A DNA stretch of 35,761 nucleotides from assembly GCA_023622055.1 (NCBI GenBank), contig JAMNZY010000105.1, positions 1 to 35,761 of the forward strand, written 5' to 3'. Positions within the stretch are counted from its first letter, which is position 1. Each line of letters opens with the position of its first letter. The notes beneath the pieces were generated by a model. It was not told the DNA's origin, did no database searches, and saw only the letters and a program-made list of their open reading frames with translations. Below are positions 5,738-28,058 of the stretch, in pieces. This DNA comes from Bacillota bacterium. Lineage in GTDB: Bacteria; Bacillota; Thermosediminibacteria; Thermosediminibacterales; Tepidanaerobacteraceae. The position numbers and the translations under genes were made by a program.

Positions 5738-6703
5738 TTGGGTGTGGAATTTTTTACAGCTCTAGTCTCATTTATAATTACTGCTGTGCTGGGAATATTG
5801 TTAATACCAATACTAGAGAAACTCAAGTTTGGGCAAAGGGTAAGAAGTGATGGTCCTAAGCGCCATTTGTCAAAAACAGGGACTCCCACCATGGGTGGTA
5901 TTATTTTTATCCCCGCCATCGCCCTGGCAACTATGCTATTTTCAGGTATTAATATTGATACTGCGGCAGTTATTTTTTTTATGATTGGATTTGGCCTAAT
6001 AGGTTTTGCCGATGATTTTATAAAGATTATTAAAAAAAGGTCTTTAGGCCTTAGAGCCAACCAAAAACTGCTGTTTCAACTTATACTCTCAGCAGTCTTG
6101 ATAGTTTATGTGTTTTCAAACTATGCCAATCCCACGGAAATTTTAGTTCCCTTTTCAAATAGAAGGCTAGACCTAGGCCTATTTTACATTCCCTTTACCG
6201 TTATATTTATTATTTTGGGTACAGTTAACAGTGTAAATCTCACCGATGGCTTAGATGGCTTAGTCTCTGGTATCGTAGCCATAATAGGGTTTTTCTATAC
6301 AGCCCTTCTAATGGAAAGCAATTTAAATCTAGCCATCTTTAGCTGTGCCATAACTGGAGGCTGTTTAGGTTTTTTGATGTTTAATTATCATCCAGCGAAG
6401 GTTTTTATGGGAGATACTGGCTCCTTGGGCTTAGGAGGTGCTCTGGCGGCCATAACCGTTTTATCTCGCAGCCATCTTTTTCTGGCAATAGTTGGCATCA
6501 TTTTTATAATTGAAACCATTTCGGTTATTTTGCAGGTCATATCTTTTAGACTTACAGGAAAGAGAATATTTAAAATGAGTCCTATTCATCACCATTTTGA
6601 ATTGTGTGGTTGGAGCGAGCGGAAGGTAGTCCACGTTTTTTGGCTGATTACTTTTATTGCGGGGATCTTAGGACTCCTTACGTATAAGGGGGTAATTATG
6701 TAA
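5738..6703 (+). CDS. mraY: Phospho-N-acetylmuramoyl-pentapeptide transferase MraY
   Basis: MraY is an integral membrane enzyme that moves phospho-MurNAc-pentapeptide to undecaprenyl phosphate, forming lipid I. Signature segments are present in order: PTMGGI, FADDFIKI (the DD pair binds Mg2+), NLTDGLDGL, FMGDTGSLGLG and the HHHFE motif near the C-terminus. There are about ten hydrophobic segments and 321 aa, which is typical. The start is TTG 5738, with CAGGAGGT ending 6 nt upstream and the murF stop immediately before it. Confidence 0.96.
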   Translation: MGVEFFTALVSFIITAVLGILLIPILEKLKFGQRVRSDGPKRHLSKTGTPTMGGIIFIPAIALATMLFSGINIDTAAVIFFMIGFGLIGFADDFIKIIKKRSLGLRANQKLLFQLILSAVLIVYVFSNYANPTEILVPFSNRRLDLGLFYIPFTVIFIILGTVNSVNLTDGLDGLVSGIVAIIGFFYTALLMESNLNLAIFSCAITGGCLGFLMFNYHPAKVFMGDTGSLGLGGALAAITVLSRSHLFLAIVGIIFIIETISVILQVISFRLTGKRIFKMSPIHHHFELCGWSERKVVHVFWLITFIAGILGLLTYKGVIM

Positions 6704-6730
6704 TAATATAAAGAAAGGGGAAATCTGAAA

Positions 6731-8086
6731 GTGGAACTTAAGGGGAAAAATGTGCTGATATTAGGGTTGGCTCGCAGTGGTGTTGCTGCTGCTGTTGAGC
6801 TGGCAAATTTAGGGGCAAAAGTGACTGCCAGTGATTTAAAAACAAGAGATAATTTAAAGGATGCTGACAGATTAGAATTAATGGGTGTAAAGTTAGTCTT
6901 GGGAGAACATCCCCATACCCTTTTAAACGAATGTGATCTCATTGTGCTCAGTCCTGGTGTCCCCAGTGATTTAGAACTTTTATATGAAGCCAGAAAAAGA
7001 GATATACCAATTATCAGTGAATTGGAACTAGGGTTTTGGTTTGCAAAAGCCCCCATAATTGCAGTTACCGGCACAAACGGCAAAACCACGACTACCACTT
7101 TAATTGGTGAAATACTTAAAAATAATGGCAATAATATCACCTTAGCTGGTAATATCGGCATTCCTTTGATTAAAGAAGTTGAGAAAGCTGACAGCAAAGA
7201 TTATTTAGTCGTGGAAGTTAGCAGCTTTCAATTAGAAAATATAATGCATTTTAGGCCTAAAATAAGCGTAATATTAAATATCACAGAAGATCATTTAAAT
7301 CGTCACAAGACTTTTGAAAATTATATAGAAGCTAAAGCTAGGATCTTTGAAAACCAGACAGAAGAAGATTACACGGTACTGAACTATGATGACCCTATTG
7401 TTAAGTCTTTTGTCAATCGAATCAAATCAAAAATCTTTTTCTTCAGTCAAAAAGAGGAACTTCCCCGGGGTATATACGTTAAAAATGGTGTAATAGTAAT
7501 AAGAGAAAATGGAAAAATTTACCCACTGCTCAAGGCTGAGGAACTCGGGATAAAAGGCAGCCACAATTTAGAAAACGCATTGGCAGCAGCTTGTGTTGGA
7601 TGGATTTGCAAGGTTAATTTAAATAATATGGCGGAGACCCTCAAGGATTTTCACGGTGTAGAGCATCGCCTGGAGTTTGTTACAGAAATTAATAATGTTA
7701 AATTTTTTAACGATTCAAAAGCCACTAATCCCTATGCTGCTCAAAAATCTATAGAAGCTTTAAAGGAACCCATCGTACTTATTGCCGGTGGATATGATAA
7801 AAATAGCGATTATACAAATTTTGTAAAAACCTTTAATGGAAAGGTTAAAAAACTCATTCTAATTGGAGATACAGCTCCTATTATTGAAGAAACTGCAAAA
7901 GAGAATGGTTTTTTAGATATCCAAAAAGCAACTTCCTTGCAGCAAGCGGTAAAACTTGCCTATGATGCGGCAAAGCCTGGAGATGCTGTGCTTTTATCTC
8001 CTGCCTGTGCCAGCTGGGATATGTTTGAAAGTTTTGAGGAAAGGGGTCGGCTTTTCAAAGAAATGGTATATTCTTTGAAAGATTGA
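6731..8086 (+). CDS. murD: UDP-N-acetylmuramoyl-L-alanine:D-glutamate ligase MurD
   Basis: MurD is a cytoplasmic ligase that adds D-glutamate to UDP-MurNAc-L-Ala. It has an N-terminal nucleotide-binding fold (LILGLARSGVAAA), P-loop GTNGKTT at 114-120, the ITEDHLNRH segment of the central domain, and the C-terminal motif NDSKATNPYAA. Length is 451 aa, as expected. The GTG start at 6731 is preceded by AAAGGGGAAA at normal spacing. It lies 27 nt after mraY in the same operon. Confidence 0.95.
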   Translation: MELKGKNVLILGLARSGVAAAVELANLGAKVTASDLKTRDNLKDADRLELMGVKLVLGEHPHTLLNECDLIVLSPGVPSDLELLYEARKRDIPIISELELGFWFAKAPIIAVTGTNGKTTTTTLIGEILKNNGNNITLAGNIGIPLIKEVEKADSKDYLVVEVSSFQLENIMHFRPKISVILNITEDHLNRHKTFENYIEAKARIFENQTEEDYTVLNYDDPIVKSFVNRIKSKIFFFSQKEELPRGIYVKNGVIVIRENGKIYPLLKAEELGIKGSHNLENALAAACVGWICKVNLNNMAETLKDFHGVEHRLEFVTEINNVKFFNDSKATNPYAAQKSIEALKEPIVLIAGGYDKNSDYTNFVKTFNGKVKKLILIGDTAPIIEETAKENGFLDIQKATSLQQAVKLAYDAAKPGDAVLLSPACASWDMFESFEERGRLFKEMVYSLKD

Positions 8087-20655: not shown

Positions 20656-20684
20656 TTTATATTTGCCATAAAAAACAGTATAAT
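20656..20684 (+). promoter_or_regulatory. Candidate promoter for nrdR
   Basis: TTTATA (20656-20661) and TATAAT (20679-20684) are 17 bp apart. The -10 is embedded in ACAGTATAATGT, an imperfect palindrome (ACA-N-TATA-N-TGT). A repressor site for NrdR itself is conceivable but not shown. Confidence 0.42.
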
Positions 20685-20707
20685 GTTTATAACAAGGAGG
20701 TGGCAGT

Positions 20708-23729: not shown

Positions 23730-23759
23730 GTATATTTTTAAAAGCCTACGGGTAACATA
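23730..23759 (+). promoter_or_regulatory. Sigma-F/sigma-G-type promoter for the DUF1614-spoIIP operon
   Basis: GTATA (23730-23734), a 15-bp spacer and GGGTAACATA (23750-23759) fit GYWTA-N15-GGNNANAMTR with a single mismatch. The geometry is identical to the sigG promoter in this window. Forespore transcription is therefore predicted for the two genes downstream. Confidence 0.6.
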
Positions 23760-23792
23760 AAGACAGACATTTTCCTAGAAAGGAGAATAACA

Positions 23793-24488
23793 ATGCCCGT
23801 AGGTGTAATTCTATTGCTATTGATAGCAATTCTGATTTATTTCGGCCTACTACAAAGGGTATTAGATAGAATGCATATGACCGACAGTATGGCAATGATA
23901 TTTATTGGCCTTATGGTAGTCGGCAGCTTTTTGCCAAATATTCCCTTAGGAAGTCAAATGTCCATAAATATTGGCGGCGGTGTTATCCCTATTATTTTAG
24001 CTGTTTATCTTATACTTACTTCAGATTCCAATCAAGAGAAATTTAGAGCAATCCTGGCATCATTAATAACTGGTGTTGCAATTTTTGTAGCGGGCAAGCT
24101 ATTGCCTGCTGAACCGGGCACTATGATTATTGACCCAATTATAGCATTTGCAATTCTTGCAGGAATAGTAGCATATATTTTTGGCCGCTCCAGAAGAGGT
24201 GCCTTTATAGCAGGTATCCTAGGCATAGTCATAAGCGACTTAATTTCTGCGCTGGGTATAGCCGGAACACCTGTGGGAACAACAATAGGAGGAGCCGGGA
24301 TTTTAGATGCAGCTGTTATTTCAGGCGTTATTGCAGTTGGGCTGTGCGAAATAGTGGGGGAGACTGGAGAAAAACTTATGGGGGGAAGTTGGGCCAAGAA
24401 AAAATCAGAGGAGTCTTCACTGGCCAGCAGCTTAGTCAGGCAAAAAAATTCTCAAGAAGAAGGTGAAAACAGTGAAGAATCCCGATAG
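23793..24488 (+). CDS. DUF1614 family polytopic membrane protein
   Basis: This is an integral membrane protein with about seven hydrophobic helices, starting VGVILLLLIAILIYFGLL and ending DAAVISGVIAVGLCEIVGE. Glycine-rich turns include NIGGGVIPI, IAGTPVGTTIGGAG and FGRSRRGAF, and there is a polar cytoplasmic-looking tail. The overall shape fits DUF1614, whose function is unknown. ATG 23793 follows GAAAGGAG. The 3' end overlaps the SpoIIP-like gene by 17 nt, so the two are probably made together. A sigma-F-like promoter upstream suggests a forespore role; this is inference. Transport or scaffold functions are both possible. Confidence 0.75.
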   Translation: MPVGVILLLLIAILIYFGLLQRVLDRMHMTDSMAMIFIGLMVVGSFLPNIPLGSQMSINIGGGVIPIILAVYLILTSDSNQEKFRAILASLITGVAIFVAGKLLPAEPGTMIIDPIIAFAILAGIVAYIFGRSRRGAFIAGILGIVISDLISALGIAGTPVGTTIGGAGILDAAVISGVIAVGLCEIVGETGEKLMGGSWAKKKSEESSLASSLVRQKNSQEEGENSEESR

Positions 24489-25677
24489 AGGTAAAAAACT
24501 TGTAAGCGCAGCAATTGTTTTTGCCCTTATCCTTTGGTTTTTCTGTCCCACTGCTTTTGCTGAAGAGGAAAGAGAAAAAGGATATTATGTGGTTTACGAA
24601 GAAGGAACCAACAAAAAAATATTTTCCACAGCAAGAGTACTGCATGTAGGTGACCAGTATTTAAACGAAGAAAACAAATTATATGAAATTGTTAAAATCT
24701 CTGGAGACAAGGCTTATGCAAAATTTAAGGAAAAGGTAGATATCGAGGCAGCTTTAAATTATCCCGGTTCAGATAGTATGGCGGATATTTCTGGAGACAA
24801 CTCTATCTCATTAGAAGCTGCTAGTGCAAAGAAAGAGAAAGTGGTAGCTATTTACCATACTCACAGTGATGAGTCATATATCCCGACTGACGGCAAAGCT
24901 AGCATACCTCACAACGGAGGTATTTATAAAGTTGGTGCTGCCCTAAAGGCAGCATTAGAAGAAAAGGGTATAAAGGTAATCCAATCTAGACAATCCCATG
25001 ACCCTCATGATTCTATGGCCTACCAAAGGTCCCGTCGCACTGCTGCGGAACTTTTGAAAAGTGGCGCTGATGCTCTCATCGATATCCATCGTGATGCAGT
25101 ACCTGCAGAGGAATATTTAGGGAATGTGAACGGACAATCTCTTGCAAAGATTCAGCTGGTGGTAGGCCGTCAGAATCCTCAAATGGAGGCTACAGATAAT
25201 TTTGCCAAACAGCTAAAGGCTACTGCTGACAAAAAATATCCAGGTCTTGTAAAGGGAATTTTTTACGGTAAAGGTGCATACAATCAGGATTTATCTCCGA
25301 GAAACATACTAATTGAGGCGGGAACTTATACAAATTCGAGATTTAAGGCCCAAGATGGCGCCAATATGATGGCAGATGTTATTGCCACAACACTTTATGG
25401 TGAAGATTACGCAAAAGAGGCTGCTCCCAGTAAAGGCACAACTACAAAAATACCGGGAGAAGGGGGAGGCGCATCTAGAGCCCTACTGTGGATTTTAGGA
25501 ATATCAGCTTTAGGATTTGGAGCCTACATGTTAATTTCTACTGGTGGTATCAACGAACTTACTGCAAAAGTTAAGCGGTTTTCCAGCAGGGAATTTGCCA
25601 ATTTTCTAGGTGCAAAAATGTCGAAATCAGATGAAGATAAGAAGGAAAGTGACGACCGAGAAGAAAAAGACCATTGA
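24472..25677 (+). CDS. spoIIP: SpoIIP-like sporulation amidase with an extra C-terminal membrane anchor
   Basis: SpoIIP cuts septal peptidoglycan during engulfment, acting as amidase and endopeptidase together with SpoIID. A signal-type segment (about residues 9-30, ending PTAFA) is followed by a roughly 85-residue N-terminal region, then the SpoIIP catalytic domain with YHTHSDESY (His129, His131), IDIHRDA (His206) and ILIEAGT (Glu282). These fit a zinc amidase fold. A second hydrophobic helix (LLWILGISALGFGAYMLIS, about 337-357) and a charged 40-residue tail follow; classical SpoIIP lacks these. GTG 24472 with AAGGTG 6 nt before it is preferred over 24463. It may be a forespore-expressed relative rather than the orthologue of B. 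subtilis SpoIIP. Confidence 0.82.
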   Translation: MKNPDRGKKLVSAAIVFALILWFFCPTAFAEEEREKGYYVVYEEGTNKKIFSTARVLHVGDQYLNEENKLYEIVKISGDKAYAKFKEKVDIEAALNYPGSDSMADISGDNSISLEAASAKKEKVVAIYHTHSDESYIPTDGKASIPHNGGIYKVGAALKAALEEKGIKVIQSRQSHDPHDSMAYQRSRRTAAELLKSGADALIDIHRDAVPAEEYLGNVNGQSLAKIQLVVGRQNPQMEATDNFAKQLKATADKKYPGLVKGIFYGKGAYNQDLSPRNILIEAGTYTNSRFKAQDGANMMADVIATTLYGEDYAKEAAPSKGTTTKIPGEGGGASRALLWILGISALGFGAYMLISTGGINELTAKVKRFSSREFANFLGAKMSKSDEDKKESDDREEKDH

Positions 25678-25720
25678 GATGAAATTAGACTTTTAAGGTA
25701 AGCTAATTGGGGGAGTAAGT

Positions 25721-26161
25721 TTGAAAGTTATTTATTCTAGCTATTGGGGCAGCTACCTTGCCATGGTAGCTGCTTCCTTGCATATAGGCCGCATTAAAAC
25801 AAAAAAAGATTTCACCCTCCATTTGTTTAACAACGTAAAGGACCACGAACTGGGAGAGCTGATACCTGTTGGCAAAGATGATGAAGGGCGAGAAGTATTT
25901 GTAGTAGGCGCTAAAAAGTCAGGTACAATTCTAGAAAAAACTTTGAAGGGAGTAGCCGAAACCTATGGTTTTTCAGCTGACTCGGTTGTATTTATTGATC
26001 TCAATCATTTTTACAATAGCCTACTTGGACTGGGTGTTTTTCTTATTAGAAGATTAAACTTGGTTTCAATTGGTACAAGACTTGTAGTAAAAGGCATAGA
26101 TTATGTAAAGTTAAAAAAGGTAGTTGACAGTGTAAAATACAAACCTTGTATAAGAGAATAG
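25721..26161 (+). CDS. DUF3189 family protein, first of a tandem pair
   Basis: This protein of unknown function is homologous to the next gene along its length. The N-terminal strand-loop-helix reads MKVIYSSYWGSYLAMVAASLHIG, and the C-terminal part includes RRLNLVSIGTRLVVKGI. Compared with its neighbour it lacks the Cys and His-Ser-Ser of the loop (SSYWGSYLA against CCYGSAHSS). It starts at TTG 25721 after GGGGGAG. It lies 43 nt behind the SpoIIP-like gene with no terminator between, so it may belong to the same transcript. DUF3189 genes tend to occur in spore formers, but no role is known. Confidence 0.72.
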   Translation: MKVIYSSYWGSYLAMVAASLHIGRIKTKKDFTLHLFNNVKDHELGELIPVGKDDEGREVFVVGAKKSGTILEKTLKGVAETYGFSADSVVFIDLNHFYNSLLGLGVFLIRRLNLVSIGTRLVVKGIDYVKLKKVVDSVKYKPCIRE

Positions 26162-26171
26162 AGGTAGGGAG

Positions 26172-26648
26172 ATGAAAATATTTTACTGTTGTTACGGCAG
26201 TGCACATTCATCGGTAGTTGCAGCATCAATTCACTTGGGACTGTTGCCTTCAAATCGGGTACCCACATTTAGAGAGTTTATAGTGTTGCCTCATTATGAT
26301 AAGACAGAGTCTTTTGAGATAGGAACACCCTTTTATATGGGGAAGGACGAATATAATTCTGAGATTTTTATATTGGGTATGGGAAGTGAGAGAAAATTAG
26401 TAAAAAGGGCCATATTGAGTTTTTTAACTCATGCAGGGATAAACACTCAGGATGTAATGATTATAGACACTTTAAAAAACGTGAACTTAATAACAAAAAT
26501 AGGAGGTTTTGCCTCAAGGAGATTGGGTTTAGTTACAATAGGGAGGCCACTTACCATATTGGGCATTCAGCAAAGATATAGAGATTTTGTTAAACTTGTG
26601 ATGCAAGTGAAAACTAAAGAACAAAATATGTTGACCCAACTTGACTAA
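26172..26648 (+). CDS. DUF3189 family protein, second of a tandem pair
   Basis: The 158-aa product begins MKIFYCCYGSAHSSVVAAS, a beta strand, a loop with Cys, His and Ser, and a helix, which is the conserved core of DUF3189. The rest has EIFILGMGSERK and SRRLGLVTIGRPLTILGI, matching the first copy (FVVGAKKSG; RRLNLVSIGTRLVVKGI). The loop looks like a ligand or phosphate site, but that is a guess. ATG 26172 follows AGAGGTAGGGAG, 10 nt after the first copy. der comes next after a 90-nt gap. Confidence 0.75.
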   Translation: MKIFYCCYGSAHSSVVAASIHLGLLPSNRVPTFREFIVLPHYDKTESFEIGTPFYMGKDEYNSEIFILGMGSERKLVKRAILSFLTHAGINTQDVMIIDTLKNVNLITKIGGFASRRLGLVTIGRPLTILGIQQRYRDFVKLVMQVKTKEQNMLTQLD

Positions 26649-26658
26649 ACTGTGTTTT

Positions 26659-26686
26659 TTGACAATAATATTGGTGCAGGTAATAA
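26659..26686 (+). promoter_or_regulatory. Candidate sigma-A promoter for der-gpsA
   Basis: A perfect TTGACA at 26659-26664 is followed after 16 bp by the weak -10 TAATAA (26681-26686). A 6-bp inverted repeat ATCAGT/ACTGAT lies further down in the der leader. Position fits a promoter for the housekeeping gene der; the -10 is the weak point. Confidence 0.38.
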
Positions 26687-26738
26687 CCGCTAATTTTAAT
26701 CAGTGTTTTACTGATAAGATACAATGGGGGCTTGAAAA

Positions 26739-28058
26739 ATGAGTTTTATTGTAGCCATTGTTGGCAGGCCCAATGTAGGCAAGTCAACTCTTTTTAACAG
26801 AATAATGGGAAGAAGAATTTCCATAGTTCACGATAAACCAGGTGTAACTCGCGACAGGATATATGGAGAGACCGACTGGAATGGGAAACATTTTACACTA
26901 ATAGATACTGGAGGCATTGAGCCATCGTCTAGTGATATTATATTAAGGCAAATGAAACGACAGGCGGATTTTGCCATTGACACTGCAAATTTAATTTTGT
27001 TTATGGTTGATGCAAAAGAGGGTATGACCCATGCTGATTTAGATGTGGCTCAAATGTTGAGAAAAAGCGGTAAGCCGGTTATATTAGTTGTAAACAAAGT
27101 AGATAATTATAGTGAAACATATCATAATTACGAGTTTTATCAGTTAGGTTTTGGTGATCCTATATATATTTCGGCTGTCCATGGGTTGGCCATTGGTGAT
27201 TTGCTGGATAAAATAACCGATTATATAGAAAAACAAGGTGATAATCCAGAAGATGAGGATATTACCAAGGTGGCCATAATAGGCAGGCCCAATGTGGGAA
27301 AGTCATCCCTTATAAATGCCTTATTAGGTGAAGAAAGGGTTATTGTCAGCGATATTCCGGGCACTACTAGAGATGCCATTGATACATACTTTGAAATCGG
27401 CGGAAAAAAGATGCTTTTCATCGACACAGCAGGTCTTAGGAGAAAAAGTAAAATCAATGAAGATGTGGAGTACTACAGCAGTGTAAGGGCCATAGGAGCT
27501 ATTAATCGTGCCGATGTAGTGCTTATGGTATTGGATGCCACTGAAAAAATAACAGAGCAGGATAAGCGAATTGCAGGCATAGCCCATGAAGCTGGTAAAG
27601 CCACTATAATTGCCGTAAACAAATGGGATTTAGTAGAAAAAGACACATATACCGTCCAAGAATTTAATAACAGAATCAGAACCGAATTAGCTTTTATGCA
27701 GTATGCGCCAATTGTTTATGTATCAGCCAAGACAGGACAGAGAATTAATCGCATTTTTACACTAATTGATACTGTCATGGAAAATTACACCCTCAGAGTG
27801 AAGACAAGCACGCTAAACAATTTAATAAATGAGGCTACAGCCATATCTGAACCACCTACCATAAAGGGAAAAAAATTGAAGATATTTTATGCTGTACAGA
27901 CAAGCGTAAAACCACCTACTTTTGTCTTTTTTGTCAATGATACAAAACTATTTCATTTTTCATATGAGAGATATTTAGAAAATACTCTCCGCCAAGTATT
28001 TGGATTTGAAGGGACTCCCATAATAATAAAACCCCGACAAAAGAAAGGAAGCGACTAA
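26739..28058 (+). CDS. der: Ribosome biogenesis GTPase Der (EngA)
   Basis: Der is an essential GTPase with two tandem G domains that helps 50S subunit assembly. G domain 1 has GRPNVGKST, DTGG and NKVD; G domain 2 has GRPNVGKSS, DTAGLRRKSK and NKWD. The C-terminal KH-like domain ends FGFEGTPIIIKPRQKK. At 439 aa it is full length. It is 2 nt upstream of gpsA, the same pairing as in B. subtilis, where spoIVA also lies a little further on. Confidence 0.97.
   Translation: MSFIVAIVGRPNVGKSTLFNRIMGRRISIVHDKPGVTRDRIYGETDWNGKHFTLIDTGGIEPSSSDIILRQMKRQADFAIDTANLILFMVDAKEGMTHADLDVAQMLRKSGKPVILVVNKVDNYSETYHNYEFYQLGFGDPIYISAVHGLAIGDLLDKITDYIEKQGDNPEDEDITKVAIIGRPNVGKSSLINALLGEERVIVSDIPGTTRDAIDTYFEIGGKKMLFIDTAGLRRKSKINEDVEYYSSVRAIGAINRADVVLMVLDATEKITEQDKRIAGIAHEAGKATIIAVNKWDLVEKDTYTVQEFNNRIRTELAFMQYAPIVYVSAKTGQRINRIFTLIDTVMENYTLRVKTSTLNNLINEATAISEPPTIKGKKLKIFYAVQTSVKPPTFVFFVNDTKLFHFSYERYLENTLRQVFGFEGTPIIIKPRQKKGSD

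Follow-up and report, generated by a model that had tools for sequence, protein, structure and literature searches.

The stretch of DNA analysed here (the window, 35,761 nucleotides) carries a gene for a DUF1614 membrane protein that overlaps a gene for a SpoIIP-family amidase, and comparison with relatives shows two SpoIIP lineages with a predicted membrane helix at opposite ends of the protein and different predicted promoter classes. The window operon probably encodes a SpoIIP that is made in the forespore under sigma-F soon after polar division, with DUF1614 as its likely membrane partner. Clostridia-type spore formers widely share this sporulation operon of two genes, which appears to supply the young spore with a membrane-anchored wall-cutting enzyme of its own. 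The features of the locus are as follows:

23730..23759, forward strand: sigma-F-like promoter GTATA-N15-GGGTAACATA (consensus match, conserved across orthologous loci)
23793..24488, forward strand: DUF1614/YphA-family polytopic membrane protein, 231 amino acids (PF07758 and PF24124, both above cut-off)
24472..25677, forward strand: SpoIIP-family amidase, 401 amino acids, GTG start with AAGAAGGTG upstream (PF07454, TIGR02867)
24472..24561, forward strand: N-terminal signal segment of SpoIIP, residues 1-30, likely cleaved after AFA (residue 30); A-x-A/EE is kept in close relatives (slash, cleavage position)
24562..24756, forward strand: conserved region typical of the DUF1614-linked SpoIIP type, residues 31-95 (alignment)
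24757..25386, forward strand: SpoIIP catalytic domain, residues 96-305 (profile match coordinates; His/Glu motifs)
25480..25536, forward strand: predicted C-terminal transmembrane helix ALLWILGISALGFGAYMLI, residues 337-355 (kept in 96/96 complete DUF1614-linked SpoIIPs)
25537..25674, forward strand: charged tail, predicted cytosolic, with an EFANFLG motif at 25591-25611 (sequence)
25721..26161, forward strand: DUF3189 gene, syntenic neighbour, possibly in the same operon (PF11385; order kept in relatives)
26172..26648, forward strand: second DUF3189 gene, syntenic neighbour (PF11385)

The DUF1614 and SpoIIP reading frames overlap by 17 nt with the SpoIIP start at GTG 24472, which has AAGAAGGTG 6 nt upstream; an alternative start at GTG 24463 is worse placed. 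An earlier note on this DNA had described a polytopic DUF1614 gene overlapping a SpoIIP-like amidase gene, and this description is borne out by the overlap and by the family matches. The pair lies in a cluster with the order ftsA-ftsZ-spoIIGA-sigE-sigG-nrdR-radical SAM-pgeF-DUF1614-SpoIIP-DUF3189-DUF3189-der-gpsA-spoIVA, in which ftsA, ftsZ, nrdR, the radical SAM gene, pgeF, der and gpsA are presumed identities, named by reading their sequences without a family match. In many relatives (e.g., L067 and L074) a YIEGIA gene (PF14045) follows SpoIIP and a DUF512 protein gene precedes der. Neither was found at 25677-26739 of the window, and YIEGIA was not found in the source genome, a MAG that is 82.8% complete.

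The association between the two genes was examined in three sets of genomes. Among 41 relatives, each DUF1614 match of this type above the family cut-off adjoins SpoIIP. A DUF1614-only search of genome contigs, made with no selection for SpoIIP, returned 80 loci, 78 of which had enough DNA, and SpoIIP was adjacent at 77 of these 78 (75 passed a scripted gap test; L176 and L183 are adjacent too and failed it only through over-long ORF starts). The lone exception, L169, has DUF1614, a 161-aa ORF and YIEGIA without SpoIIP; the ORF, at 6623-7108 of that locus, has no Pfam match and occupies the place of SpoIIP. A phylum-wide even sample of 101 genomes gave 81 matches of this type, with SpoIIP adjacent or fused at 78 of 79 after the unresolved ones had been read; the remaining three matches were L226 (cut by a contig end), L236 in G046 (a divergent DUF1614 alone) and L237 (not DUF1614 by profile). 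Another DUF1614 subfamily, which scores upward of roughly 170 bits in some genomes, was left out of these counts. Rare co-occurrence, which the earlier note had named as speaking against its proposal, is not what this tabulation gave: adjacency is about 98% across dozens of families. Chance adjacency was considered and rejected. SpoIIP is missing from two near-complete relatives, G012 and G039, and so are DUF1614 and spoIVA; the pair therefore goes with sporulation there. Some genomes hold two DUF1614-SpoIIP pairs (L094 and L095 in G035; L233 in G082 and L235 in G118). The spoIVA match of one relative falls into two segments, the second of which contains stops (G001:C12:37622-38149), maybe an assembly error.

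One lineage has the DUF1614 and SpoIIP domains joined in one protein, seen in four genomes (L092, L205, L230 and L231) and probably the outcome of a single fusion event. The two fused proteins that were examined lack the C-terminal helix, and an N-terminal helix ties SpoIIP to DUF1614 instead.

The window DUF1614 protein scored 40.9 bits against PF07758 (cut-off 23.9), which all 80 aligned homologues match, and 35.2 bits against PF24124 YphA (cut-off 28), which 73 of the 80 match at E<=0.01. Its AF2 model (pLDDT 91, pTM 0.80) has seven membrane-length helices, and the motifs GRSRRxAF, GGAGxFD and GETRERLQGG are conserved in relatives. A Foldseek search of the model against the PDB gave a best E-value no lower than 0.78, no PDB sequence relatives were found for either DUF1614 or SpoIIP, and a literature search for papers naming DUF1614 found none. 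The earlier note had proposed DUF1614 as a partner of SpoIIP, and synteny and fusion both favour this; a structural model of the natural fusion L205 contributed no confident interface, because it resolved into two domains with a pTM of 0.41 and hence no confident arrangement of DUF1614 relative to SpoIIP. We regard DUF1614 as the likely membrane partner of SpoIIP, and we infer physical contact between the two as well as forespore expression of this SpoIIP. Alternatively, DUF1614 could be an independent forespore membrane protein (e.g., a transporter) that shares only its timing with SpoIIP and forms no complex with it. DUF1614/YphA proteins do occur without this SpoIIP (the B. subtilis YphA family, L169 with YIEGIA, and the divergent protein of G046), many charged residues are conserved in DUF1614, and the model has no confident interface, all of which is in keeping with independence. 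Set against this are the near-constant adjacency with overlapping genes and the fusion accompanied by loss of the C-terminal helix, so that we consider an independent DUF1614 unlikely, although it keeps appreciable weight.

The window SpoIIP matches PF07454 with 217.1 bits (cut-off 24.4) and TIGR02867 with 191.1 bits (cut-off 123.15). Residues H131, H206 and E282 are invariant among 24 aligned members of the DUF1614-linked group and, judged from their motifs, would be equivalent to H142, H222 and E309 of C. difficile; with these catalytic His/His/Glu motifs present the protein is a predicted amidase. The N-terminal segment, the region of about 85 residues after it, and the second helix with a charged tail that the earlier note had listed are all present, but that region is a usual feature of DUF1614-linked SpoIIPs rather than extra. 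In a fused homologue strands are predicted with low confidence in the part corresponding to residues 31-95. An EF-NFLG-like motif recurs in the predicted cytosolic tail of many DUF1614-linked relatives.

The same note had called the amidase doubly anchored. Two hydrophobic segments are indeed there, but double anchoring is in doubt, as the N-terminal one (hydrophobic part about residues 10-25) resembles a cleavable signal peptide. It ends TAFA/EEE, an A-x-A/E-E pattern is found again in the nearest relatives, and the segment is thus probably cleaved in this lineage. By a crude count, an AxA-type signal motif occurs in 39 of 98 DUF1614-linked SpoIIPs vs 7 of 39 in the other group (Fisher 0.016). 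Many DUF1614-linked SpoIIPs have no clear AxA site, and some may therefore keep both anchors. The proposal that both ends of the window SpoIIP stay anchored in the forespore membrane draws on these relatives and on the two hydrophobic segments; given the AFA/EEE site here and its counterpart in close relatives it seems doubtful to us. The best reading is a cleaved signal peptide with one lasting C-terminal anchor; the catalytic domain would then lie outside the producing cell and the charged tail in its cytosol.

The earlier note had suggested looking for a second, classical spoIIP, and a PF07454 search of the genome did find one other SpoIIP, cut by a contig end and located upstream of lepA. 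In relatives the corresponding classical spoIIP lies between gpr and lepA, and in one of them gpr (PF03418) upstream and lepA downstream were confirmed. Since the classical copy was found upstream of lepA, the window SpoIIP is an additional copy; the idea that it is a lone classical spoIIP moved to this place was considered and rejected. In a quick tree of 100 SpoIIP catalytic domains, in which deep forks are weak, the DUF1614-linked SpoIIPs form one clade (SH-aLRT 99, stem length 1.19), and gpr-linked and other copies fall outside it. Three extra copies that do not adjoin DUF1614 (L101, L128 and L134) fall inside the clade. Every complete DUF1614-linked SpoIIP has a predicted C-terminal transmembrane helix, and no member of the gpr-linked group does; within the set that is not DUF1614-linked only L101 and L128 have one, both members of the DUF1614-linked clade. 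With its DUF1614 linkage, C-terminal helix and separate clade, the window SpoIIP does not belong to the classical gpr-linked group.

The promoters of the two lineages were compared using the published consensus sequences quoted in PMC3416734, with the sigma-F -35 element loosened to GYWTA and sigma-A added. In the window, sigG is preceded by GTATA-N15-GGCAAAACTT and DUF1614 by GTATA-N15-GGGTAACATA, and the earlier note was correct that the two share the same geometry. Taken alone, the sigma-F-like site of the window beats chance by a modest margin only (shuffle p 0.01-0.035); the positive controls in the window gave p 0.005 (sigG, sigma-F) and p 0.01 (yunB, sigma-E). Upstream of DUF1614 at 75 loci, matches at p<=0.05 against shuffles were found for sigma-F at 33, sigma-G at 21, sigma-E at 2 and sigma-A at 0, counts that are to be read with the overlap of the sigma-F and sigma-G consensus sequences, the self-chosen spacer ranges and the non-independence of related loci in mind. 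At 33 non-redundant loci sigma-F sites were present in 16 and sigma-G sites in 11, and the sigma-F figure compares with 6 of 180 control upstream regions of the same loci (Fisher 1e-10). The 25 gpr-linked spoIIP genes had sigma-E sites at 11 and sigma-F sites at 0, and the two linkage groups differ for sigma-F (33/75 vs 0/25, Fisher 1e-5) as well as for sigma-E (2/75 vs 11/25, Fisher 2e-6). The same test upstream of gpr gave no match; the ORF starts used there are probably inside the gene. At 20657-20687 of the window, upstream of nrdR, there is a strong sigma-E-like match (reached by 0 of 200 shuffles) that is similar to a sigma-A -10 element as well.

A forespore-made SpoIIP is well supported at the sequence level because DUF1614 operons are enriched in sigma-F sites and gpr-linked spoIIP genes in sigma-E sites, and this sequence evidence points to forespore vs mother-cell expression of the two SpoIIPs. 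The forespore-made amidase of the earlier note thus stands as far as promoter sequences go, with conserved sigma-F-type sites and rare mother-cell or vegetative promoters, but it is not unique, as C. difficile also has a forespore SpoIIP. The window SpoIIP would then probably serve engulfment or the remodelling of the germ cell wall and not a later step. Alternatively, it could work late and leave engulfment to the classical SpoIIP: sitting in the inner spore membrane and controlled by sigma-G no less than by sigma-F, it would modify the germ cell wall or the cortex or take part in germination. The sigma-G matches at 21 of the 75 loci would suit such timing. From its gene numbers we suspect that CD2636-CD2634 of C. 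difficile corresponds to this locus without spoIIP. That operon encodes two membrane proteins plus one hypothetical protein and is reported to be sigma-G dependent (PMC3789822). Sigma-F nevertheless outscores sigma-G in the full and the non-redundant sets, DUF1614 loci repeatedly show the GG of the sigma-F -10 element, and SpoIIP is reported to act in engulfment in both model species (PMC6934232); a late role appears improbable.

In the preferred reading, sigma-F would drive SpoIIP production in the forespore soon after polar division. The signal segment would export the protein across the forespore membrane and the C-terminal membrane helix would stay there; because SpoIIP is exported with this helix kept, its amidase domain would be presented from the forespore side, facing septal or intermembrane peptidoglycan. 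The mother cell would use a sigma-E promoter to make the classical, gpr-linked SpoIIP with its N-terminal anchor. For the other components of the DMP engulfment machinery, SpoIID and SpoIIM, the genome gave four SpoIID-family and two SpoIIM-family matches, assigned at family level.

Most descriptions of engulfment involve a single SpoIIP, which in B. subtilis is attributed to the mother cell. To our knowledge B. subtilis has the gpr-linked SpoIIP only; it has both YphA-family and YIEGIA proteins, and the window DUF1614 matches the YphA family above cut-off. Compared with this classical SpoIIP of the gpr-spoIIP locus, the window protein is of the same Pfam/TIGR catalytic family and keeps the catalytic His and Glu motifs, but it falls in a separate clade, is DUF1614- rather than gpr-linked, has a C-terminal membrane helix and a shorter N-terminal region without a match to Pfam positions 1-73, and its gene has a sigma-F-type instead of a sigma-E-type promoter. 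We tentatively suggest that most Clostridia-type spore formers might use a pair of ancient SpoIIP lineages to open the attack on the septal wall from either side, one N-anchored in the mother cell (sigma-E) and one C-anchored in the forespore (sigma-F) and held or controlled by DUF1614. If so, B. subtilis would be without the forespore half of the pair and the model species would be the exception in its phylum, the reported C. difficile difference in the SpoIIP-making cell would gain evolutionary context, and DUF1614/YphA would gain a testable role.

In C. difficile, SpoIIP is reported to be sigma-F dependent and is proposed to act on the forespore side with SpoIID opposite (PMC3789822, PMC6934232, PMC6221140). 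The window protein resembles it in being predicted to lie on the forespore side, across from SpoIID; the C. difficile gene (CD2469), however, is gpr-linked (CD2470 is gpr) and is the only spoIIP discussed in the parts of those papers drawn on, whereas the window gene is a second, DUF1614-linked copy beside a classical one. B. anthracis is reported to have two spoIIP genes, one under sigma-F and one under sigma-E (PMC3789822), a likeness in that two genes follow different compartment sigma factors. The arCOG02159/pfam07758-SpoIIP-YphB neighbourhood was reported by Makarova et al. (2015), who suggested a membrane-remodelling complex (PMC5898192). The gene neighbourhood and the idea of a complex are common to both accounts, and the portion of that paper drawn on is without a lineage split, anchoring, promoters or fusions. 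Nor did the portions consulted of the literature on forespore and classical SpoIIP describe a two-lineage split in anchor and promoter. A forespore SpoIIP (C. difficile) and the DUF1614-SpoIIP neighbourhood (2015) were thus already known; the apparent novelty is the division of SpoIIP into two lineages that differ in anchoring and in the compartment predicted for each.
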